DNA from: Argopecten irradians
Taxonomy: Eukaryota; Mollusca; Bivalvia; Pectinida; Pectinidae
Length of the DNA stretch: 64,000 nt
Direction of reading: 5' to 3'
Assembly: GCF_041381155.1 (NCBI RefSeq)
Contig: NC_091145.1
Coordinates: 38,641,882-38,705,881 of the forward strand
Shown here: positions 1 to 51,225 of the stretch, piece by piece
Layout: every line of letters starts with the position of its first letter
Numbering within the stretch: position 1 is the stretch's first letter
The notes under the pieces: model-generated
Seen by the model: the letters and a program-made list of their open reading frames with translations, nothing else
What the model was told of the DNA's origin: nothing
The model's database searches: none
Program-made: the position numbers and the translations under genes

Positions 1-141
1 AAAACAGGAGGTGAGTATCAGGCTCTGGGCCTCCAGTGGAGAAACCAACCCAAACCTGACGTCAATACTTATCTCTACTCTAAAACAGGAGGTGAGTATC
101 GGGCTCTGGGCCCTCAAGTGGAGAAACCAACCCAAACCTGT
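1..141. repeat. Two-copy 82-bp direct repeat at the left edge
   Basis: Two near-identical blocks (1-59 and 83-141) each run from AAAACAGGAGGTGAGTATC to CCAACCCAAACCTG, with a spacing of 82 bp. The block contains CAG-GAG-GTGAGT, which looks like a splice acceptor followed at once by a donor, but no coding sequence was recognised. It is probably the visible end of a longer tandem array in an intron of the carrier gene to the right. The window edge truncates it, so the true copy number is unknown. Confidence 0.6.
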
Positions 142-3100
142 CGATTGTTTCATGTCTATTGTTGTTACATGTCAATTGTCTATTGTTACATGTCTATTGT
201 CTATTGTTACATGTCTATTGTTACATGTCTATTGTTGTTACATGTCTATTGTCTATTGTTACATGTCTATTGTCTATTGTTATTGTTACATGTCTATTGT
301 TACATGTCTATTGTTACATGTCTATTGTCTATTGTTACATGTCTATTGTTACATGTCTATTGTCTATTGTTACATGTCTATTGTCTATTGTTACATGTCT
401 ATTGTCTATTGTTACATGTCTATTGTTTGTCTATTGTTACATGTCTATTGTTACATGTCTATTGTCTATTGTTACATGTCTATTGTTACATGTCTATTGT
501 CTATTGTTGTCTGTCTATTGTTACATGTCTATTGTTACATGTCTATTGTCTATTGTTACATGTCTATTGTTACATGTCTATTGTTACATGTCTATTGTCT
601 ATTGTTACATGTCTATTGTCTATTGTTACATGTCTATTGTCTATTGTTACATGTCTATTGTTGTCTATTGTTACATGTCTATTGTTACATGTCTATTGTC
701 TATTGTTACATGTCTATTGTTACATTCTATTGTCTATGTTCATGTCTATTGTTACATGTCTATTGTCTATTGTTACATGTCTATTGTCTATTGTTACATG
801 TCTATTGTTACATGTCTATTGTCTATTGTTACATGTCTATTGTTACATGTCTATTGTCTATTGTTACATGTCTATTGTCTATTGTTACATGTCTATTGTC
901 TATTGTTACATGTCTATTGTCTATTGTTACATGTCTATTGTCTATTGTTACATGTCTATTGTTGTCTATTGTTACATGTCTGTTGTTGTCTATTGTTACA
1001 TGTCTATTGTTGTTTTTATGTTACATGTCTATTGTTATTTATGTCTATTGTTACATGTCTATTGTTTGTTACATGTCTATTGTTACATGTCTATTGTTAA
1101 TGTCTATTGTCTATGTTTCTATTGTCTATTGTTACATGTCTATTGTTACATGTCTATTGTTACATGTCTATTGTTACATGTCATTGTCTATTGTTACATG
1201 TCTATTGTCTATTGTTACATGTCTATTGTTACATGTCTATTGTTACATGTCTATTGTTACATGTCTACATGTCTATTGTTACATGTCTATTGTTACATGT
1301 CTACATGTCTATTGTTACATGTCTATTGTTGTCTATTGTTACATGTCTATTGTTACATGTCTATTGTTACATGTCTATTGTCTATTGTTACATGTCTATT
1401 GTTGTCTATTGTTACATGTCTATTGTTACATGTCTATTGTTACATGTCTATTGTCTAATGTTACATGTCTATTGTCTATTGTTACATGTCTATTGTTACA
1501 TGTCTATTGTTACATGTCATTGTCTATTGTTACATGTCTATTGTTTGTCTATTGTTACATGTTATTGTGTCTATTGTTACATGTCTATTGTTACATTGTC
1601 TATTGTTACATGTCTATTGTCTATTGTTACATGTCTATTGTTACATGTCTATTGTCTATTGTTACATGTCTATTGTCTATTGTTACATGTCTATTGTTGT
1701 CTATTGTTACATGTCTATTGTTACATGTCTATTGTCTATTGTTACATGTCTATTGTCTATTGTTACATGTCTATTGTTACATTGTCTAATGTTTTGTCTA
1801 TTGTTACATGTCTATTGTCTATTGTTACATGTCTATTGTTGTCTATTGTTACATGTCTATTGTTACATGTCTATTGTCTTGTTTGTTATTGTTACATGTC
1901 TATTGTTACATGTCTATTGTCTATTGTTACATGTCTTATTGTCTATTGTTACATGTCTATTGTTACATGTCTATGTTGTCTATTGTTACATGTCTATTTT
2001 GTCTATTGTTACATGTCTATTGTTACATGTCTATTGTCTATTGTTACATGTCTATTATTGTTACATGTCTATTGTTGTCTATTGTTACATGTCTTTATTG
2101 TCTATTGTTACATGTCTATTCTATTGTTACATGTCTATTGTCTATTGTTACATGTCTATTGTTACATGTCTATTTGTCTATTGTTACATGTCTATTTTGT
2201 GTCTATTGTTACATGTCTATTGTTTATTGTTACATGTCTATTGTTGTCTATTGTTACATGTCTGTTGTTGTCTATTGTTACATTTCTATGTTTTTACATG
2301 TCTATTGTCTATGTTACATGTCTATTGTCTATTGTTACATTCTATTGTTACATGTCTATTGTTATGTCTATTGTTACATGTCTTATTGTCTATTGTTACA
2401 TGTCTATTATTGTACATGTATTGTTACATGTCTAGTTGTCTATGTCTATTGTTACATGTCTATTGTCTATTGTTACATGTCTATTGTTGTCTATTGTTAC
2501 ATGTCTATTGTTTATTGTTACAAGTCTTTTGTTGTCTATTGTTACATGTCTATTGTTGTCTATTGTTACATGTCTATTGTTGTCTATTGTTACAAGTCTA
2601 TTGTTGTCTATTGTTACATGTCTATCGTCTATTGTTATTCTATTGTTACATGTCTATTGTTGTCTATTGTTACATGTCTATTGTTGTCTATTGTTACATG
2701 TCTTTGTTGTCTATTGTTACATGTCTATATTATTGTTACATGCATTGTCTATTTTGTCTATTGTTACATGTCTCTTTATTGTTACATGTCTATTGTTGTC
2801 TATTGTTACATGTCTATTTTGTCTATTGTTACAAGTCTATTGTTGTCTATTGTTACATGTCTATCGTCTATTGTTACATGTCTATTGTCTATTGTTACAT
2901 GTCTATTGTCTATTGTTACATGTCTATTGTTGTTACATGTCTATTGTCTATTGTTACATTTCTATTGTTAAATGTCTATTGTCTATTGTTACATGTCTAT
3001 TGTCTATTGTTACATGTCTATTGTTACATGTCTATTGTTACATGTCTATTGTTACATTTCTATTATTGTTACATGTCGATTGTTTCATGTCTATTGTTAC

Positions 3101-3547
3101 AAGTCTTTTGTTGTCTATTGTTACATGTCTATTGTCTATTGTTACATGTCTATTGTTACATGTCTATTGTTACACGTCTGTTGTTGTCTATTGTTACATT
3201 TCTATTGTTACATGTCTATCGTCTATTGTTACATGTCCATTGTTGTCTATTGTTACATGTCTATTGTTGTCTATTGTTACATTTCTATTGTTGTCTATTG
3301 TTACATGTCTATTGTTGTCTATTGTTACATTTCTATTGTTGTCTATTGTTACATGTCTATTGTTGTCTATTGTTACATTTCTATTATTGTTACATGTCGA
3401 TTGTTTCATGTCTATTGTTGTCTATTGTTACAAGTCTTTTGTTGTCTATTGTTACATGTCTATCGTCTATTGTTACATGTCTATTGTTGTCTATTGTTAC
3501 ATTTCTATTGTTGTTACATGTCTATTGTTTCATGTCTATTGTTACAG
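142..3547. repeat. 3.4-kb minisatellite built from 7-bp modules, intronic
   Basis: Nearly every base belongs to two heptamers, TCTATTG and TTACATG, usually joined as TCTATTGTTACATG, with extra TTG or TCTATTG inserts. The left two thirds are homogeneous. From about 2420 onward the array carries many variants (ACAAGTC, TCTATCG, CATTTC) and a 24-bp higher-order unit TCTATTGTTG + TCTATTGTTACAT. Because 7 is not a multiple of 3 and the units contain no stop triplet, all three + frames stay open for long distances; these open frames are not genes. The last unit, TATTGTTACAG, supplies the AG acceptor of the exon at 3548, so the array forms the 3' end of a host intron. Confidence 0.95.
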
Positions 3548-17900: not shown

Positions 17901-18291
17901 TGTATACATATTTATTATTATAATGTACAATGTTGAATTTTGGAATCAAACAAAAGATATTTATTATTTCATTATAGTTAAAATTGATTCAACCACTATA
18001 AGTTAAATAGGTTTTTTTCCCGAAAAAATCTGGTAAAAATCTTATTACCATTTTCGTTATAAACATGTACATTTGTAAGTAATTAATCAATTCTATATAC
18101 ACGTAATAATAACTTTAAAAGAAAAGAAAATAGGCCGGGATCTAGGGGGGAGGGGTCCACGTGCATCCCCCCCCCAACTTAACGAACCAATGTTTTTTCT
18201 GAAGCCTTATGGCCCACTACCCCTGCTCGATTCGTTCTGAAAAGCGGCTACCGGCGTACGCCAGTCACGTGACCGGGCGACGACCGGGCGA

Positions 18292-21200
18292 TCTGGCAAA
18301 ACAAGCACTGAAAGGAATGATCAATCAGCTGGCAGGAGAGGTCGAGAGACTTAGAGACACCAAGGTACAAGCCCCTGCCCAAGGTCACGACAGAACCAAC
18401 AGGTGTACAGAGAAGACAGTAAGGAAAGATGTCGATCAAAAGGATGAGCCAATATGCTGGAGGTGTACCCAGCCGGGACACCTACGCATTGGTTGTAAGG
18501 TGAGGATGGATCACTCTAAACATTATTTAAACGCCAAGAAGCCTTCATCGGGGGGCAGATGAACGGCAGTGAGATGACTCGCCCCAAGACACCAGATTTA
18601 CTTGGAACGGCAAATGAAGTAAGCATGAAGGTGAGAGGACAGGTTACCAAGGCATTACTTGACACTGGATCAACAGTCTCCACCATCAGCCGGCACTTTC
18701 ATAAGACTTATTTGAGCGACATTCATATATAGCCACTCTCGACCGTCCTCAACATTAAGTGTGCTGATGGACAGCAACTTCCATACGACGGCATCATAGA
18801 AGTTGATCTTGAGGTAAATGGGATTAATGGAACCCAGCATGTGGAGTCCTGTGTCCTGCTCGTTGTTCCGGACAGTAACTACAACAGCAATGTCCCCTTG
18901 TTGATTGGAACCAACATCCTAAATATTTTGATGACTCGCATGAGAGAAATTCATGGAGCGAGATTCCTCCAAGACACGGATATTATAACACCTTATTACC
19001 TCGCCTTCAGATGTATGCATCTTAGAGACAAGGAGCTAGAGAGGAACCACCATAGACTCGCCCTTGTGAAACTAGCTGGCAATAAAAGAATTACCATTTC
19101 GCCGAATACCGACATCACTTTAAGTGGATACCTCGACAAATGCCTTGGATATCAGCAGGTTTGTGCAATGGTCCACCCTACCAAGGAATCGGCTATACCT
19201 GATGATTTAGATATCACACCCACACTGGTTTCATATGGACCACAGGAGAGGAGATCACTGGACATACATATAGCTAATGTCAGCACTAGGACGGTCACCA
19301 TATCACCGAGAGCCATACTCTGCGAGATCCAGCCAGTGTCAGTTGAGGGGAGAATGGATGACACAGGTGAAGATGAAACACCAACCGACATATTGGACCA
19401 AGTGACCATATGTAAAGAAGACCTTGATCAGACTAAGGTAGCAGAAATTAAGGAGATGCTGAGTCGATACCGCAACATATTCTCCACTTCAGATACGGAC
19501 CTTGGCCTGTCAAGTACCATAAAACACAGGATCGAACTGACAGATGAGGTGCCCTTCAAACAGAGACATCGCCGGATACCTCCAGCCATGTTTGAAGAAG
19601 TTAGGAATCACCTCCAGCAACTATTAGCGAGCGGAGTAATACGAAGGTCGCACTCACCTTGGGCATCGAATGTCGTGCTCTGCAGAAAGAAGAATGGCAA
19701 GCTCCGTATGTGCGTGGATTACCGGCAACTGAATCAGCGGACCATTAAGGATGCCCATGCCCTCCCACGTATAGAGGAGATACTAGATGCCTTAGGAGGA
19801 AACCGCTACTACAGCACCGTCGACATGAAAGCAGGGTACCACCAGGTGGAGTAGAGTAGAGTCATAAGGAAAGGACAGCATTCACGGTAGGACCACTAGG
19901 ATTCTACGAGTATGTTAGGATGCCTTTTGGACTCGCTAACTCCCCTGCGACTTACCAACGCCTTATGGAGTATATACTCTGGGATATGAACCTGAAAATA
20001 TGCTACGTATACATGGACGACGTCATTATCTTCGCCAAGTCGTACGAGGAACATATGGAGAGACTCAATGCCATCTTTAAAAGATTTGAGGAGGAGGGTC
20101 TTAAACTTTCCCCGGATAAGTGCTCCCTGTTCATGAAGAAGGTCAAGTTCGTAGGACACATTGTATCAGAGGACGGTGTGGAACCCGACCCAGAAAAGCT
20201 GGAGAAGGTGAGGACATGGCCAACCCCTACAACACCAGAACAGGTGCGCCAATTCTTGGGCTTTGTCGGATACTACCGCCGATTTATAAAGGACTTCGCC
20301 AAGATTGCTAGACCTTTAACAGATCTTATACCAGCACCTAGGAAAGGGAAGGGCAACAAAGCTAATAAAGACAAGCCTAGATGGATATGGGAAGGAGCCC
20401 AGGAGGAAGCTTATAAAAGCCTGAAGGAGCAACTACAGTCGCCACCCATCCTCGGCTATCCAGACTTTAGCAAGCCCTTCATACTCCACACTGATGCCTG
20501 TATCCTAGGGTTAGGAGCAGTCCTCTACCAACAACAGGACAATCAGAAGAGGGTTATAGCCTATGCCAGTCGCGGACTTAGTAAGACGGAGAAGCGATAC
20601 CCCGCTCACAAGCAGGAATTCCTTGCCCTTAAGTGGTCTGTCTGTGAGAAGTTCCATGACTACCTGGTTGCTTCCAAGTTTTCCGTCTTTACAGACAACA
20701 ACCCACTGACATACGTCTTGACCTCTGCCAAGCTAGATGCCACATCTCAGCGTTGGGTTGCAGCATTAGCAGCATATGACTTTTCCATCACATATAGACC
20801 AGGTTCCAGCAATGCTGATGCTGATGGAATGTCCAGACTACCAGGACTTACCACTACAACAGATGAGGGCAACAAAGTCATCGAAATGGAATCTGTACAA
20901 GCGGTGTGCTGCAACGTGGCGACACCACCATACGCTGAATGCTTGACAACCGACAGCAATCTTATAGATGCCAATGGAGCGGAGCCTAAGACTTATCCTG
21001 TAAGAAGTCTCCGTAAAGATCAAGCCAATGATCCAATAATAGGATGGTGGCTACCTAAGGTTAGAGATTCCAGGAAATCAAGGAAACAGGATCTTTCACC
21101 AAACTGCATAAGGACTCACCAGAAACTCCTCGACAGCTATGATAAGCTAACCATAGAGGACGGATTACTGTACCGAAAAGTACTTATGGAGACAGAGGAG

Positions 21201-24200
21201 GTTAAACAGTTGGTCCTGCCACAAATCCATCAGAAAACTGTTCTGCAATATCTACACAATGATATGGGACACCAAGGGAGAGAACGCACCATTTCACTTC
21301 TGAGGAACAGATTCTTCTGGCCAGGGATGGTGAAAGACGCAGAAACATGGATAAGTTCCTGTAGTAGGTGTCGCCATAAGAGAACGACTACGGATAGGGC
21401 ACCATTGACCAACATCACCACCTCACAGCCTCTGGAGCTGGTCACGATGGACTTTCTCTCCTTGGAAACTTCTAAAGGAGGATTTCAGAACATCTTGGTC
21501 ATCGTGGATCATTTTACCAGATATGCGGTTGCCATACCAACAAGGAACACCACCGCCAAAACCACGGCCGAAGTCTTCTTTAATCACTTCGTGACTCACT
21601 ACGGCCTCCCACAGCGGATACACAGTGACCAAGGTCCTAATTTTGAAGGGAAGCTTATCAAGGAGCTATGTCAACTAACAGGGATGAACAAGTCACGCAC
21701 GACTCCATATCACCCCATGGGAAATGGAATCTGCGAAAGATTCAATAGGACACTCCTTGGAATGCTAAGAACTCTGGAAAACCCATTAAAACAGGACTGG
21801 AAGTCTCACGTTCCGACATTGGTACACGCATATAACTGTACAAAACAGGAGAGTACTGGATTTTCACCTTACTTCCTCATGTTTGGGAGAGAACCACTTT
21901 TGCCAGTAGACCTTGCTTTTGGTCTTACCAGAACTTCAGGAAGGACAGAGCCGACATCAGTCTACATCAAACAGATGAAGAACCGCCTGAAAGAGGCTTA
22001 TGACCTTGCCAAGAAACATGTCAACAAGGCACAGAGGAAACAGAAGTCTGGTTATGACCTCAAAGCGAGAGGTGCAGTGCTACAACCAGGCGACGGTGTA
22101 CTGGTTAAGGTGGTTGCTTTCGATGGAAAGCATAAGATAGCAGACAGATGGGAGGAAGAACTCTATACAGTTCTGAGGCAACCAAATGATGAAGTACCAG
22201 TGTACGAAGTACAGAGACAGGATGGGACGGGGAGAAAGAGAACACTTCACAGAAATCTCCTACTGCCAGTAGGACTGGAATTGAACCAACCAACTCTGGA
22301 ACCGGACACCAGTGTTAAACGACCGAAACCTGCACCGAGGCGAAAACACATTAACATCACTGTGATGGAGAATAATGACCCCTATCAGGACGACAGTGAT
22401 GAAGAGGTCACATTAGAAGTAACTCCTAAGAGTGTGGTTGACCCCCAAGTGACCTTGGAGGAGTATGAGGACCACCAAGATGATGATGATGCTCCCACGA
22501 GTACTGGTGACGACCAGTTATTTGAGGATGAGGAGGATGGACAGAGTCAGCATCCCCCATCAGAGGAGGAGCAAGATCAGGAGAGTGATGTTCAAGAGGA
22601 GACTAATGAGGACGCAGAAGTCCAACATCCTCCGTCAGAGGAGGAACCAGAAGGTGACCTCGACCTTGATGAAGCGACCTCTCGACCCAGGCGGACACGG
22701 ATGCAACCAAAGTGGATGCAGAGTGGGCAGTATGTCCTAAGTCAGCAGCCAGATTGGGTCAGTAGAGCTAACTACATCAGAAGCCTCGCCAGGTCTGGAG
22801 AATTCCAGAATGCTCAGAGTGACCTCACTCGAGCACTTCTGAAGGTTATCACAGATAATGATGCAGATTAAATTTGTTTTATCATTGTTTTAATTATGAT
22901 TATATAGAAATATTGTCTAATGTTTCAAATGTCTTTTATTTCAGAAGTCCAGAAATAATATTATTATATTTCTGCTATTAGCTAAATTTATTTCTCTTCA
23001 GGTATGCAGAAGAATTAAGATGTATTATTAATTTCAGATTAATCGTTCTTTATTATTTGTTTTAAAAGTTGCAGATGCCGGGGACGACATCCTTAAGCAG
23101 GGGGAGAATGTGGCAGGGTAATTAATTATGTAATTAATTAAGTAACTAATTAGTTTATGTAATTAGTATTAGTGTATTGATGTATAGTAATAAGTTAAGC
23201 TGCACCCCTGCACTACATGTATGTGTTGTCCCAGTACTGTCTATATGTCACTGTCTTGTTTACCTGTATACCTGTATACCTGTATATTACCTGAAATGAG
23301 AGAGTGCATGGATGGATGAGCACATTCTTTGTCTATAGGTGTGGGTAGGTACCAGTCAGGTGACTTACCTGGCTGGTCAGCTGATTGTTTTTATTGATTT
23401 TATTGGTTTATAGATATAATAATGTATGTTTTTATTGGTCAAACTTTCCCTCCAAAATTCTATCTTTGGAGAACTTTCCTTTGTCTGTGGGCAGTTCACA
23501 GAGCGAGTTTCATGAGAACAGTTGTGTTTTGGTCGATCAGACATTTTGTGAAATCTGGATTTGTCTATGAGGAAATTCTTCTACTTCTGTAAGTCTTCTT
23601 TTTCTATTTCTTACTAATATTGTATATCCTGTGCAATGTTCATAAAGTAAATTATTTATATCTAATTGCTTTATTTTGGTAAAATTATCAGAATGTGTTA
23701 AACTATTTTTGAATAAGTTGAATTGACTTGAAAGTGTAAAAACATAAGTATGTATTTGAATTTAAGAGTAATTGTCTATTTATATAGACAATTTGATATA
23801 AAGTAATATGTAAATATTGATCTCTATTATAACCGTCATAGAGATGGAAAATCAGTGTTTTATATGGAGATATTTTATTAGTTTAGACCTTTTTGTGATA
23901 TTGTGTATTTTATTCATGAATAGGACCCTGGGTCGAAAGATATTAACAATGTAACAAATATCGAAGCCTAATTGAGTCGGCCCATAGCCAGGTGTGTATT
24001 TATATAATGTGTATATCTTTGTATTGGTATTAGAATATGATGTAAGTAATGCATTGATAGTGTTATATGTTATAGTGTCTAAGTGGGTAGATTATCTCCC
24101 CTTAGACAAGAGTAATTTGTTGTATAGTTGTAAAGGGGCGAATTGTCTCCCCCTGATATCATGGTATAGAGGAGACAAATTGTCTCCCCTGATTTTAGAT

Positions 24201-34229: not shown

Positions 34230-35636
34230 TCACTCTAAATGCAGAAGATGGGATGCTGCGTCGATGTACTGTATCACATCCATTGCGCCAGTCTCCAAAC
34301 GTTCCTTCAGTTGGGTAAGGCGGCTGTCGATGTTTCGGTACCGTTTGGCTCTGGGTCTGGTTTGTCCTCCGGCTGCGTGTTGGATGCGCGTAATCTCGTT
34401 GTTGGCCTGGATTTCCTGGAACACACGGATGATGCTGTAGATGTTTGGGTGGGAGTGTTCAACCTTCTTCTTGAGTTTGTTGTGCCATCCTTCTACGTGG
34501 TTCGTTGTTCGGGGGCCCTCGGTCTCAAAGTGGTTCCAGAGTGGTTGGTCGCGCTCTATCCACTGTGTAATGACGTAGTCGGTGAATGCGGTGGTGTACT
34601 GTGGTACATCAGCATCTTCAAGGTCGTTGAGTGCGTGGAACCAGACATCTTCAATACGGTTTAAAGGGACTAGGGGTAGGGCTGCGGCTCGTCGTACCAG
34701 TCGTCTGATGTCGTCGTTGTCGGCGTAGAGTTGTTGAAGTCCGGTTTGCTGGGCTTTCCTCCAAATACACTGCGTGAAATGAAAAAAACATCCCTTCAGT
34801 GTAGCAGCTGGGAATACGGAGCGAATGGCATTCTGGGCAGCGGTCTCGAAGTCCAGGAAAACAGTAGTTGGGTTGAGTTGGAGGTTCAGTTCCGTCATCT
34901 TCGTCTTGAGTAGTGTGAAAAAGCGTTGGTAAGTTGTCTGGGTCTTGCTGGGTAATAAACTGTAGACTAGCGGGTACATCTGATTTCCTATCTGGGCATG
35001 AATGGTGTAGATCTGGTGAAACTGGGTCGGACAGGTGTAGAAAGTTCCATCACAGAAGAGAGTATCAGCGTTACATAGGTCGATGAGGTTGCTGGATGTC
35101 GCAAAGGCTATGATGCGGGATTGGTCACCATCGTCAAGTAGAAGGAATTCCTCTCCAGCAGTCGTCTGTGTCCACTTTCCCTCGAGATTGATGTCCTGGA
35201 TGGTCTTTGGTAGTTGAGGAGTCTGGGTGCGTCTGGCGTTGTAGAGTAATGTCTTGGTAGATTGAAATGTTGGTAGGTGTTGGACAGTGGAGAGTGTGTC
35301 GTTATTCCAGTCGTGAGTTCGCAGTTTGGTAACCTCTTCTTCGTAGATCCTGGGTATGGGTTTCACCTCCTCCACGCAGCGGGTACGGATGTTCTCCATA
35401 ATCTCCAGGGCGGTGATCTTAGCGTGGTCCTGAGGATGGTTGTGGAGGTGGCGACCATTTCCTGTAGGGATGTTGTTGCGGGTACTCAGTGAGGCGGGGC
35501 AGTCGGGTATTGTGCATCTCCAGTAGGTGCGTTCTCCTCTGTTGTTCTTCACACATTAGATGTAACCATTATAAGCAATGTTCTGTCTTCCAAATTTATT
35601 TCTAAGAAATTTCACCTGAATCTGTGCGTTTGCCAT
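34230..35636 (-). pseudogene. MULE transposase with N-terminal FLYWCH zinc finger, one internal stop
   Basis: Reading on the - strand from ATG at 35636: MANAQIQVKFLRNKFGRQNI, then YNGYI, a TAA at 35556-35558, then CVKNNRGERTYWRCTIPDC...HLHNHP. The block F-L...Y-x-G-Y...Y-W-R-C-x5-C...H-x-H is a FLYWCH zinc finger, and TAA stands where the family usually has a Tyr codon (TAT/TAC). After the stop 441 codons are open. The MULE transposase domain follows, with CDGTFYTCP (first Asp), VFLDFETAA (second Asp), CFFHFTQCIWRK (C-x2-H motif) and TNHVEGWHNKL (Glu), so the DDE triad is complete. The frame ends at 34230. The element is therefore nearly intact but carries a nonsense change, unless an intron or start downstream of the finger is used; no ATG lies soon after the stop. 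Confidence 0.85.
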
Positions 35637-35789: not shown

Positions 35790-36215
35790 CCCTGATAATT
35801 AAAAACAAAACAGCTTATGTGGCCAATTACAAAGACCTACATGTATGCTAATTATTTGATTACTGATTCTTCACTCACCAAGTAGTCAGTCGATGGACCC
35901 AAGCCATCAGGTGATAATTAACAGAAGTAGTAGTGAGAACAAGCCAAATTAAGTCAGAGTAATCAAATGATTTAATCAATCGCACATTATTGTATAATGC
36001 AAATAATTAAATAGATAAATAAAATATACTGCCAGCATAATGCAAATAATGTCCTATAATTTAATTCTCTGATATGTATTAATTCAAAACTATATAAAGC
36101 ATCTCTTTATATAGTTTTGAATTAATACATATCAGAGAATTAAATTATAGGACATTATTTGGCTTGGGTCCATCGACTGACTACTTGGTGAGTGAAGAAT
36201 CAGTAATCAACTTTA
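35790..36215. repeat. Nested hairpin: 51-bp arms and an outer 45-bp inverted repeat
   Basis: AATGTCCTATAATTTAATTC...ATATAAAGCATCTC at 36048-36105 is followed by its exact inverse to 36158. Outside it, TGATTCTTCACTCACCAAG/TAGTCAGTCGATGGACCC (35864-35903) is the inverse of 36163-36207, although about 140 bp of other sequence separates it from the inner left arm. The long perfect arms imply a recent inverted duplication. Confidence 0.8.
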
Positions 36216-36515
36216 AACATTGTGTAAAATCCAGGTAATGTGGGAGAACACAGGTAAAATCCAGGTAAGGGATATGTGAAGCAGACTATAACTGCTGTCA
36301 CAACATAACTGCCCCTATGTTATTATAAAAAAGTGGGAGAAACACGACTGACTACTTGGTGAGTGAAGAATCAGTAATCAACTTTAAACATTGTGTAAAA
36401 TCCAGGTAATGTGGGAGAACACAGGTAAAATCCAGGTAAGGGATATGTGAAGCAGACTATAACTGCTGTCACAACATAACTGCCCCTATGTTATTATAAA
36501 AAAGTGGGAGAAACA
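36174..36515. repeat. Perfect 171-bp tandem duplication
   Basis: CGACTGACTACTTGGTGAGT...AAAAAGTGGGAGAAAC at 36174-36344 is repeated without visible change at 36345-36512. It follows the hairpin at 36048-36158 inside the MULE. It is either a very recent duplication or an assembly artefact. Confidence 0.85.
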
Positions 36516-43549: not shown

Positions 43550-44823
43550 TCACAAGTCGTTCGCATCAAAACAAGCCTGCTTTTCTCCATACCACATGAA
43601 TTTCCCTATGTCATTATAAATACGATGGTATTTTTCAGGATTGTGAAGACGCTTACATATCTCGCAGAAATTTCTCTGCAATACATCAATGATTCCTTGA
43701 ATCGTGTAGTACTTTCTCCATTTGAAATACTCACGGTACTTAGTTTCATTTTTTGCAATACCCAACAAGAATTCTGTAAGCTGTTGAGGGCTGGAATAAT
43801 CACGTGTGTGGATGTACGATCCAGGTGGATGAAACAAAGAATGATTTACACCGTCACGGATCACTGGAACGATGTCACGACTCATGATTAGGTTGAGTGA
43901 TTTTTCTGTGACGTAATCAACACAAATCGAGTTTTCGAAAGAAAGATAAAATTTGTACTTGGTATTCATCACATCAAAACATGTATTAATAGCACCTGAA
44001 GTATTCCAGGATGTTTTGTGTCTATTGTCACCTCGACATTTTAAGTTTCCACATGTCCCAAAAATGTCGAGATCCAGACCACTTTGTCGAAGTTTTTTCA
44101 CATAGAAGTCTCGTTTCGAGCTAACACCACAATTACTTATAAAGCCAACAGCACTTTTAGTTTTGGATTTTATCGAACGTTCTAGAGACCTACTGTCAAA
44201 CTCTTGCGACCGTTTCTTGAAGTAGCCATGTTCCAGTGTAAAATCAGAGTCACGTCTGTAGGTAAACGTCCAATTAAACAGGTTGTTGTGGTGAGGCTTT
44301 ATGTTCCTACCTGGCGGGTAGTCAAAACTGGTCGGGGCCTCATGCTCCATGAGAATCCACACCTGGCCAAGCTTCTTTTTCCACGAAGATCGAAAATCGA
44401 AAGGCCTTATCAATACTGCGTGACTGTTACAAATATTTTCTTTGTCTTTCGACAAGACACAATTGGAAACAGGACATGGTTTGAAGATGGTCGAACTTTC
44501 CCAACCTGACCCGATCCAGTCGTTAAGCCAATGTGCGGGATTGTTCACATAGATAATGATGGGGTTTTCCTTGATTTCCATGATTGGTTTAATGAAGTTG
44601 CATTGTGGACCTGTTTCACGGTCCTTATCCCTACCGGGAGGGTCATTCGTAGTAGGGGTATTCCATTTGGAATAAAACAGAGCGATCAAAGACAAGCACA
44701 CTACAACGGCTACTCGAACGGTCTTCCGTCGAGTGCAAAACACTGCTGCAAATCCAACGGTCTTCCGTCGAGTGCAAAACACTGCTGCAAATCCAACGGT
44801 CTTCCGTCGAGTGCAAAACACTG
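43550..44823 (-). CDS. Alpha-(1,3)-fucosyltransferase (GT10), main coding exon
   Basis: A Golgi type II membrane enzyme that moves fucose from GDP-fucose to GlcNAc-type acceptors. About 424 codons are open, ending in TGA at 43552-43550. There is a short basic region (CTRRKTV), one membrane anchor (VAVVVCLSLIALFY, about residues 37-50 counting from 44821), a stem, then GT10 landmarks: VWILMEHEAP (154-163), NWTFTYRRDSDF (183-194), KSAVGFISNC (222-231) and the family signature FYLSFENSICVDYVTEKS (291-308), with six or more cysteines typical of the fold. Length fits the family. There is no ATG in frame before the anchor: the frame starts at a splice acceptor (TTTTTGTCTTTGCAG, then CAGTG at 44823), so the start codon lies in an unseen upstream exon. 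The 5' 39 bp, acceptor included, is triplicated. The acceptor sugar (Lewis-type or core) cannot be told. Confidence 0.9.
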
Positions 44824-44831
44824 CTGCAAAG
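44706..44831 (-). repeat. 39-bp triplication at the 5' end of the fucosyltransferase exon
   Basis: Three nearly identical units TTTGCAGCAGTGTTTTGCAC TCGACGGAAGACCGTTxGA, each encoding FAAVFCTRRKTVG, with possible splice acceptors TTTGCAG at 44824, 44785 and 44746. The first unit begins TCTTTGCAG after a T-rich tract; the third passes directly into the membrane anchor. Confidence 0.9.
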
Positions 44832-44989
44832 ACAAAAAGTGAACAATATCATTATACTTTGCGGTTCTTTTTAGCAAGCAAATAGTTTGTTTTAAACATA
44901 TTTTGATTCGCTTGCTTGTACCAAGCATCGTAATATGCTTAAAATCACTTTATCAGCCATTACAGGAAAAAATCGCGTCACCGTTTTTA

Positions 44990-45685: not shown

Positions 45686-46186
45686 TAAAAAAATCACCAA
45701 TCAGAATACCAGATTTAGCATGAAAAAAATCACCAATCAGAATACCAGATTTAGCATGAAAAAAAATCACCAATCAGAATACCAGATTTAGCATGAAAAA
45801 AAAATCACCAATCAGAATACCAGATTTAGCATGAAAAAAAAAATCACCAATCAGAATACCAGATTTAGCATGAAAAAAAAATCACCAATCAGAATACCAG
45901 ATTTAGCATGAAAACAAAAATCACCAATCAGAATACCAGATTTAGCATGAAAAAAATCACCAATCAGAATACCAGATTTAGCATGAAAAAAATCACCAAT
46001 CAGAATACCAGATTTAGCATGAAAAAAAAATCACCAATCAGAATACCAGATTTAGCATGAAAAAAAAAATCACCAATCAGAATACCAGATTTAGCATGAA
46101 AACAAAAATCACCAATCAGAATACCAGATTTAGCATGAAAACAAAAATCACCAATCAGAATACCAGATTTAGCATGAAAAAAATCG
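45686..46186. repeat. 34-37-bp tandem repeat, about 14 copies
   Basis: The unit ATCACCAATCAGAATACCAG ATTTAGCATG is constant; only the A-run between units (AAAAA to AAAAAAAAA, or AAAACAAA) changes length. CCAAT boxes recur in every unit. Constant core plus variable A-run points to slippage. Confidence 0.95.
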
Positions 46187-47279: not shown

Positions 47280-49986
47280 ATAGGACTTTGACTTCGTTTT
47301 TAACTCTTATAATTCTAATTCCAGAGGAATAGCTATTCTTTTTAATAACAACTAAATAAAAATAAAATATTTCAGGCTAAAAGAGATGATCACATTAACT
47401 ATTTGGCATTAAATATTGAAATTGAAGGACAGAAACTAACTTTGATTACTGTATATGGACCCAATACTGATATTGGTAATAATAACTACATAATTTGTGG
47501 GTACCTGAATATGAATTTTGATTTTACTCTAGATTGCTGCAATTCCAAAAATAAATAATCCCAAAACCAGGGAAAAAGTATTAGAATTGAACAAAAAGTA
47601 CGGGCTTTTTGACACATTTAGAGAACTTAACCCTGGCACTAAACGATACACTTGGCACAGAAGAACACCAATCAGACAAGCGAGATTAGATTATATACTA
47701 ACTTCAGACAGTTTATTAACAAGCCTCACTTCATCAAAAATAGAACCAGGTTATATATCAGACCACTCACACTCAGTAATAAAACCAGGTTATAGATCAG
47801 ACCACTCACACTCGGTAATAAAACCAGGTTATAGATCAGACCACTCACACTCAGTAATAAAACCAGGTTATAGATCAGACCACTCACACTCAGTAATAAA
47901 ACCAGGTTATAGATCAGACCACTCACACCCAGTAATAAAACCAGGTTATAGATCAGACCACTCACACTCAGTAATAAAACCAGGTTATAGATCAGACCAC
48001 TCATACTCAGTAATAGAACCAGGTTATAGATCAGACCACTCACACTCAGTAATAAAACCAGGTTATAGATCAGACCACTCATACTCAGTAATAGAACCAG
48101 GTTATAGATCAGACCACTCACACTCAGTAATAAAACCAGGTTATAGATCAGACCACTCATACTCAGTAATAGAACCAGGTTATAGATCAGACCACTCACA
48201 CCCAGTAATAAAACCAGGTTATAGATCAGACCACTCACACTCAGTAATAAAACCAGGTTATAGATCAGACCACTCATACTCAGTAATAGAACCAGGTTAT
48301 AGATCAGACCACTCACACTCAGTAATAAAACCAGGTTATAGATCAGACCACTCACACTCAGTAATAAAACCAGGTTATAGATCAGACCACTCATACTCAG
48401 TAATAGAACCAGGTTATAGATCAGACCACTCACACTCAGTAATAAAACCAGGTTATAGATCAGACCACTCACACTCGGTAATAAAACCAGGTCATAGATC
48501 AGACCACTCACATTCAGTAATAAAACCAGGTCATAGATCAGACCACTCACACTCAGTAATAGAACCGGGTTATAGATCAGACCACTCACACTCAGTAATA
48601 GAACCAGGTTATAGATCAGACCACTCACACTCAGTAATAAAACCAGGTTATAGATCAGACCACTCACACTCAGTAATAAAACCAGGTTATAGATCAAACC
48701 ACTCACACTCAGTAATAGAACCAGGTTATAGATCAGACCACTCACACTCAGTAATAAAACCAGGTTATAGATCAAACCACTCACACTCAGTAATAAAACC
48801 AGGTTATAGATCAAACCACTCACACTCAGTAATAGAACCAGGTTATAGATCAGACCACTCACACTCAGTAATAAAACCAGGTTATAGATCAGACCACTCA
48901 CACTCAGTAATAGAACCAGGTTATAGATCAGACCACTCACACTCAGTAATAAAACCAGGTTATAGATCAGTCCACTCACACTCAGTAATAAAACCAGGTT
49001 ACAGATCAGATCACTCACATTCAGTAATAAAACCAGGTTATAGATCAGACCACTCACACTCAGTAATAAAACCAGGTGATAGATCAGTCCACTCACACTC
49101 AGTAATAAAACCAGGTTATAGATCAGACCACTCACACTCAGTAATAAAACCAGGTTATAGATCACACCACTCACACTCAGTAATAAAACCAGGTTATAGA
49201 TCAGACCACTCACACTCAGTAATAGAACCAGGTTATAGATCAGACCACTCACACTCAGTAATAAAACCAGGTTATAGATCAGACCACTCACACTCAGTAA
49301 TAGAACCAGGTTATAGATCACACCACTCACACTCAGTAATAAAACCAGGTTATAGATCAGACCACTCACACCCAGTAATAAAACCAGGTTATAGATCAGA
49401 CCACTCACACTCAGTAATAAAACCAGGTTATAGATCACACCACTCACACTCAGTAATAAAACCAGGTTATAGATCAGACCACTCACACTCAGTAATAAAA
49501 CCAGGTTATAGATCAGACCACTCACACTCAGTAATAAAACCAGGTTATAGATCAGACCACTCACACTCAGTAATAAAACCAGGTTATAGATCAAACCACT
49601 CACACTCAGTAATAAAACCAGGTTATAGATCAGACCACTCATACTCAGTAATAGAACCAGGTTATAGATCAGACCACTCACACTCAGTAATAAAACCAGG
49701 TTATAGATCAGACCACTCACACTCAGTAATAAAACCAGGTTATAGATCAGACCACTCACACTCAGTAATAAAACCAGGTTATAGATCAGACCACTCACAC
49801 TCAGTAATAAAACCAGGTTATAGATCAGACCACTCATACTCAGTAATAAAACCAGGTTATAGATCAGACCACTCACACTCAGTAATAGAACCAGGTTATA
49901 GATCAGACCACTCACACCCAGTAATAAAACCAACTTGTTCTGATTTTAAACGTGGAAAAGGACTTTCGAAATTTAACAACTCGTAA
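47280..49986 (+). pseudogene. LINE (L1/Tx1-type) endonuclease fragment with internal in-frame array
   Basis: Decayed pieces upstream (AILFNNN, LALNIEIEGQKLTLITVYGP and IICGYLNMNFDFTLDC, in which the usual GDLN is GYLN) belong to an APE-type endonuclease. The open part from 47587 reads KKYGLFDTFRELNPGTKRYT, then WHRRTPIRQARLDYILTSDS, the well-known C-terminal half of the domain. It then enters about 56 copies of KPGYRSDHSHSVI and leaves as DFKRGKGLSKFNNS, which is the normal continuation after the SDH motif in these LINEs. The array therefore arose inside the element rather than next to it. An upstream stop, a short deletion and loss of the reverse transcriptase make the copy inactive. Confidence 0.8.
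47741..49930. repeat. 39-bp array, about 56 copies, of the endonuclease SDH motif
   Basis: The unit CCAGGTTATAGATCAGACCA CTCACACTCAGTAATAAAA is repeated head to tail for 2.2 kb with very few changes. Variants are linked: TACTCAGTAATAGAA (SYSVIE) travels together, giving 78-bp dimers at about 47990-48190, 48240-48300 and 49630. Because 39 is divisible by 3, frames on both strands stay open (a 735-residue frame on the - strand is a shadow). Confidence 0.97.
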
Positions 49987-50610
49987 TTTTTGAAAATGAC
50001 AGCCATACAAATATCAAAAGGCAAAATATCTTGAAAACTAAATGATGTAGAATCCTGATTTTTGTTCTATACCTATATTTCAGGGTTACTGAATGCAAAT
50101 ATAATCATTAGTAATTGGTATAATTATAATTCTATATCGATAAGTTTTTAAGTCATTAGAATATAAACATTTCTATGTCAGCCATTTTGAATAACAAAAT
50201 GCCCCCGACGGCTTTTATCAACAAGTACTCATTGTAATGGACACCATTACATAGTCCCCAAAACGCACCCCCAATTGCAACAAATCAAGAATGCAGTTGC
50301 ACAGTGTATATGAATATCTTGGGAGAATTTTGATGTACTTTTATATAGGAATTCAGGTTCTCCTAAAATGTACATAACTACATAACTCGGTGATCATGAC
50401 CCAGGACCTGGCCATGCCTTGTACCTGAGTATAGTGCGCACCCCAACTTTTCACTTGAGAATTTATGAAAAAAAAAGTGCGCACTATTCGCGCAAAAATA
50501 CGGTAATACAATGCTATTTTCCGAGGAATTAATTTGGCAGTTATCATGACTGTATGGCATCCCTTAAAATTTTAAGTTAAAACCCCCATTTACCAATTTT
50601 CAATGAATTG
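49987..50610. other. No gene seen
   Basis: AT-rich sequence after the LINE fragment. There are no motifs beyond short repeats of CATAACTACATAACTCGGTG type; open frames are short. Confidence 0.4.
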
Positions 50611-50619
50611 CTGACGAAA

Positions 50620-51225
50620 AATTGAAAACAGGAAGTTGGCCCAGCGACAATCTTTTAAATTTTTTATCATATTGATCAGTATCCCTTAATACCCCTATAT
50701 TCTAATTTTTATTGAAATCAGACCAAAATATAAAAACAGGATGTTAGCCCAGCGGCCATCTTGGAATATCAAAAATATTTACGAAAATGTTTTTATGTTG
50801 ATCGCCATCCCTTAAAACCCCTGTAGACCAATTTTCATGAGATCGAAGATCGAAACCTGATGAACAGGAAGTGAGCCAGCGGCCATCTTGGAATAGCAAA
50901 ATCTTTATCAAAACGTTTGCATGTTGCTCGCCATCCCTTAATAATCCTATAAACCAATTTTCATTGAGATCGAGGACCGAAACCTGAAAACAGGAAGTGG
51001 GCCAGCGGCCATCTTGGAATACCAAAATCTTTACAAAAAAGTTTGCATGTTGTTCGCCATCCCTTAAAACCCCTATATACCAATTTTCATTGAGATAGAA
51101 GTCCGAAACCTGAAAACAGGAAGTGGGCCAGCGGCCATCTTGGAATACTAAAATCTTTACGAAAACCATTGCATGTTGTTCGCCATCCCTTAAAACCCCT
51201 ACATACCAATTTTCTATATTTACAC
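50620..51225. repeat. 126-bp tandem repeat, about five copies
   Basis: CAGCGGCCATCTTGGAATA recurs at 50750, 50877, 51003 and 51129 (126-127-bp spacing), each followed by AAAATCTTTAC, GCATGTTGTTCGCCATCCCT and CCAATTTTCATTGAGATCGA. The rightmost copies are the most alike; the left ones (from 50620) are diverged. Since 126 is divisible by 3, a 141-codon frame on the - strand stays open. It resembles the internal repeats of hairpin-started elements (compare GAGATCGGAGACCGAAACC at 53259). Confidence 0.85.

Follow-up and report, generated by a model that had tools for sequence, protein, structure and literature searches.

A 56-unit, 39-bp minisatellite inside a LINE endonuclease motif in the scallop Argopecten irradians

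Tandem repeats derived from transposable elements (TEs) are well described. In the human genome, 7,276 of them have been reported, amounting to 23% of minisatellites and satellites, with units born inside a TE and grown by local duplication (PMC3389668, where a unit of 10-100 bp defines a minisatellite). LINE coding sequence has also given rise to satellite families, and PMC9659126 (Table 1 and text) includes PROsat in Phodopus, Pvc 20 in a seal and HinfI in the chicken, all derived from LINE ORF2. As for the starting point of such arrays, short flanking repeats of 5-10 bp have been put forward as the birthplace of minisatellites (Haber and Louis 1998, as cited in PMC6947457).

Here we describe an array in a stretch of 64,000 nucleotides of the Argopecten irradians genome (GCF_041381155.1, contig NC_091145.1, positions 38,641,882 to 38,705,881 of the forward strand), called the window below, in whose coordinates positions are given unless another locus is named. 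An exon of this genome codes 65 residues, all 65 of them identical to the myosin heavy chain of the structures 1b7t, 1kk7 and 1qvi; these come from the bay scallop, which has 16 chromosomes, and the match points to Argopecten or a close relative as the probable source. On the whole, the array is an ordinary but clean example of a TE-derived minisatellite. Like the human cases, its unit was very probably born inside a TE and grown by local duplication; unlike them, it belongs to a scallop genome and to the endonuclease (EN) coding motif of a LINE, an EN-derived case not being among those described in the parts of PMC3389668 drawn on here. With PROsat, Pvc 20 and HinfI it shares the turning of LINE coding sequence into a tandem repeat, whereas these are satellite families and the window array is one minisatellite at a single locus. 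It also resembles the situation of Haber and Louis, in that the motif of unexpanded relatives is flanked by short repeats at unit-length spacing, but differs in that the repeat of the founding copy is imperfect today, and the founding event is one that we infer. The locus is a clear example of minisatellite birth, with unexpanded relatives in the same genome that still carry direct repeats spaced by precisely one unit. In addition, the family includes a second copy that has made a different array by seemingly the same route.

The array and its host LINE fragment

Tandem Repeats Finder (TRF) gives a 39-bp period at 47739-49932 with 56.3 copies, 96% matches, 0% indels and a score of 4066. When cut in register, the array consists of exactly 56 head-to-tail units without indels at 47743-49926 on the forward strand, each coding a version of KPGYRSDHSHSVI, in agreement with an earlier note on this DNA that had spoken of about 56 in-frame copies. 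The size in the assembly, 39 bp by 56, is that of a minisatellite. The consensus is matched exactly by 19 of the 56 units, the mean difference between units is 3.7%, and 16 distinct unit haplotypes follow each other in a non-repeating order. The unit includes SDH, which is catalytic in APE-type endonucleases. The same note had placed this motif in the amplified unit, and this stands for 47 of the 56 units, while it does not for the nine others, which read SNH (4), SVH (2) or SHH (3). When the 39-bp unit is searched with at most three mismatches through the whole genome (845,758,899 bases), 56 places are found, all inside the array, and the reversed unit as a control gives 0 matches in the same search. 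The array is thus unique to this LINE copy.

LINE sequence borders the array on both sides. The left part, an EN-coding fragment at 47287-47742 (+), starts where the blastn similarity starts, and three-frame translation reads its LINE residues in two different frames, with the change near 47530, where a TAG is located. The right continuation, at 49927-49999 (+), reads KPTCSDFKRGKGLSKFNNS and then a stop, the LINE similarity ending at 49982-49999. Among 36 loci outside the window, the left-flank piece matches 35, in 28 distinct places, with best E values no higher than 2.6e-11; the sole unmatched locus is L002, which is not a LINE. The FKRGKG continuation of the right side is aligned in 32 of the 36, and is not aligned in L003/L014 (one place), L037 and L002. 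These matches confirm the earlier statement that the array has LINE sequence at both sides. The LINE family, which is probably L1/Tx1-like, is recognized through the relative L016, in which PF03372 and PF14529 are found in one frame and PF00078 (reverse transcriptase) in the next, so that the relatives of the flank have both EN and reverse transcriptase domains. In this unexpanded copy the PF03372 match stops at residue 254, that is, at the H of SDH.

The window copy itself is a fragment cut at both ends and not an element: its similarity covers only 47287-49999 with a frame change inside, and neither a complete 3' end nor an intact frame is found in it. The closest relative found for it, L003/L014 (contig 5), shares 77% identity with it across 23-349 of the 456-base query and itself carries a deletion. 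A 70-aa piece of the window taken alone matches no Pfam model. Five units together reach 22.5 bits for DUF1421, under the cut-off of 22.8, which we take as low-complexity noise.

Unexpanded relatives and the growth of the array

In the relatives the motif is present once. A pattern search finds it a single time in 26 of the 28 places; the two loci outside the pattern, L014 (deletion) and L037 (frame break), have a broken context, and tblastn finds the motif once in them. A second tandem 39-bp copy is found in none of the 28 other LINE places examined, and TRF detects no 39-bp period in 45 loci at a score of 50 and again at 30, the only period of 37-41 bp among them being a 37-bp doublet in L028. 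When the left flank, three units and the right flank are used together as the query, the best 150 of 678 candidates are, outside the array, LINE matches with a single motif, though a duplication of greater divergence could escape such a search. The view of the earlier note that the minisatellite was born inside a LINE coding motif is supported by these results, since the relatives have a single motif in the same surroundings and the array is found only here.

The motif of many relatives stands between two short direct repeats. In 14 of the 28 relative places it is flanked by an exact 9-bp repeat, TCAATAATT, the two copies of which are exactly 39 bp apart. TCAATAATT is one of just two exact direct repeats of at least 9 bp that occur at spacings of 15-60 along the 2,238 bp of L016. 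L030 has 8 bases of this repeat, in ten other places only 4-5 bases match in a run at the 39-bp spacing, L003/L014 has ATAGAAC twice at 38 bp apart, and L037 and L040 have no repeat at 39 bp. Unlike the 14 relatives, the window copy has a diverged and imperfect direct repeat of its own, AATA.AACCA, with the left half at 47739-47748 (+) and the right half at 49923-49932 (+); some of this right half may belong to an incomplete final unit. The right flank of the array aligns to the relatives without gaps. The TCAATAATT repeat is not sufficient for expansion, because the 14 places having it in perfect form are unexpanded at the site.

The array is thus, with high probability, a non-coding minisatellite nucleated within a decayed LINE copy, in an ordinary minisatellite birth. 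In its founding step, the last EN motif, containing SDH, would have had short direct repeats on either side with a spacing of 39 bp, and replication slippage or microhomology-mediated repair between these repeats would have duplicated the 39 bp. This first duplication we only infer, because the relatives with the perfect repeat are unexpanded and the repeat of the window copy is imperfect. In a second step, slippage between neighbouring units, unequal exchange or conversion, which the array data do not tell apart, may have raised the count to 56 and also kept the units alike.

The order of the variants gives some support to the second step. Like variants cluster along the array, with a nearest-neighbour sum of 210 versus 324 when shuffled (1.4% of shuffles are as low), and units with the H-to-Y change precede an E unit in 6 of 7 cases (shuffled P about 0.001); here E is the residue of the LINE itself, and K resembles the right flank. 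A longer copy order is not detected in the array, where lags 1-14 all have |z| < 2 and recurring runs of four units number 0, with 0.79 expected. In addition, the units are 3.7% apart, far less than the copy is from its relatives (77% identity with the closest one), showing that the present state of the array is younger than the insertion; so the array was made or homogenised after the decay of the LINE had begun.

Coding potential and other explanations

The array lies in a long open frame, 47533-49986 (+), with 817 codons from stop to stop; the frame of 799 codons given in the earlier note is the same one, counted from 47587. That note had regarded it as a striking repeat protein if ever translated, and it is to be considered whether a selected, translated repeat protein has arisen from the EN domain of the LINE. 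In its favour are the 817 open codons and the absence of stops in any of the 56 units, by which the statement that all copies remain open holds literally. This openness has little weight, however, because none of the 13 codons of the unit is a stop and all copies are open whether translated or not. Actually, the opposite strand is also open, for 739 codons at 47726-49945 (-), which shows that the openness simply comes with the unit. The frame at 47533-49986 has no in-frame ATG, with the TAG just upstream and a stop just downstream, the LINE frame is broken near 47530, and the D of SDH is lost in 9 of the 56 units. The 14 substitution types across the units comprise 5 synonymous ones and 9 that alter a residue, and none of them creates a stop. 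If changes are drawn at random with the transition/transversion mix kept, the probability of no stop is 0.57 and that of 5 or more synonymous types is 0.32, so there is no significant synonymous excess across the units. The substitutions look neutral, and the comparison of synonymous with residue-replacing changes, which had been suggested as a check, does not support selection on the frame. With neither an ATG nor a significant synonymous excess, a protein function of the array has no support, and we regard a selected repeat protein as extremely improbable. More generally, where the length of a tandem unit is divisible by three, a long open frame over the array does not count as evidence for a gene.

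The two other explanations concern the array as DNA. The count of 56 rests on one assembly, and long tandem arrays are error-prone in assembly, so that an assembler might have over-expanded one or a few units; a copied assembly error, however, would not yield 16 unit haplotypes in a non-repeating order, and we think this very unlikely. It could also be supposed that an older satellite family entered the LINE, common to the window array and L002, an array of contig 3 whose period is also 39 bp. L002 has about 66% similarity over 917 bp, and its doubled-unit score of 32, versus a shuffled mean of 13, is reached by 0 of 200 shuffles. With far more shuffling, however, scores of at least 32 appear in 1,716 of 3,399,906 shuffles, about 5 per 10,000, and an array-rich genome should hold such matches, the window alone having 56 overlapping TRF rows. 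Moreover, a 312-bp piece of the array failed to retrieve L002, L002 has no LINE match, and the 39-bp unit is plainly the EN motif of the LINE itself. Chance is the likelier source of the similarity as judged from these comparisons, and a shared older satellite seems very unlikely. The earlier note had named identical arrays at non-LINE sites as an observation that would speak against its reading; none is found, the best non-LINE array being L002 with its approximately 66% similarity. Nucleation within the decayed LINE copy remains the preferred explanation.

L002 is composed of two blocks, 1438-2410 and 3029-3239, with other repetitive sequence in between. The units of six other arrays of the window were compared with the 39-bp unit as possible homologues, and their scores do not exceed those of shuffled units (P 0.43 to 1.0). 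The array at 45687 compared with the units of L002 gives P 0.025 (200 shuffles).

A second array in the family and other repeats of the window

A second array is found in L030, a further copy of this LINE family. At 1935-2335 of L030 (contig 13, about 20,106,130-20,106,530), 12 units of 33 bp code NSRGTAILLYN. The array lies in the EN domain, is bordered left and right by LINE sequence, has an open frame, and is independent of the 39-bp array of the window. At the corresponding site in 8 relatives, an exact 5-bp TAATT repeat with 33-bp spacing is present in 5; L020 shows 4 bp, the repeat is broken in L021, and L023 is not found by the probe. TAATT as the seed of the L030 array is only suggestive, because 2,238 bp contain 8 runs of 5 bp at the 33-bp spacing.

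Taking the two arrays together, it might tentatively be proposed that the EN-coding sequence of this LINE family is a recurrent nucleation site of in-frame minisatellites. Short direct repeats around its motifs, spaced by whole numbers of codons (39 and 33 bp), would be the cause, and copies in decay would repeatedly have turned into coding-like arrays; we consider this possible but doubtful. Arrays are found in 2 of 29 places (the 28 plus the window), by which recurrence is allowed and not proven. The 37-bp doublet of L028 is out of frame, showing that arrays in the LINE copies are not confined to multiples of three. If the proposal is true, recurrent EN arrays would be raw material for repeat proteins.

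The window is rich in other repeats. Within 5.2 kb there are three arrays with periods of 38-39 bp, at 44717-44830, 45687-46183 and 47739-49932, and their units are unlike. The one at 44717-44830 is 2.9 copies of a 39-bp unit, GFAAVFCTRRKTV, at the start of a glycosyltransferase family 10 (fucosyltransferase) frame at 43550-44848 (-), and each unit has TTTGCAG, a potential splice acceptor. A long degenerate array with several open frames occupies 139-3546, and its units are TGTCTATTGTTACA-like. Frames like those of an LTR retrotransposon are found at 18203-22871 (+), with reverse transcriptase, RNase H and integrase motifs recognized by eye only, and a 441-codon frame with a MULE transposase domain (PF10551) at 34230-35555 (-). 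At 36174-36515 a 171-bp unit is duplicated exactly, and its 100% match shows that the duplication is very recent. To the right of the 39-bp array, a many-copy dispersed repeat at about 50214-51214 leads into a 126-bp tandem array; a search with 49930-50680 returned 669 first-look candidates, with non-LINE dispersed repeats from about 50214 on.
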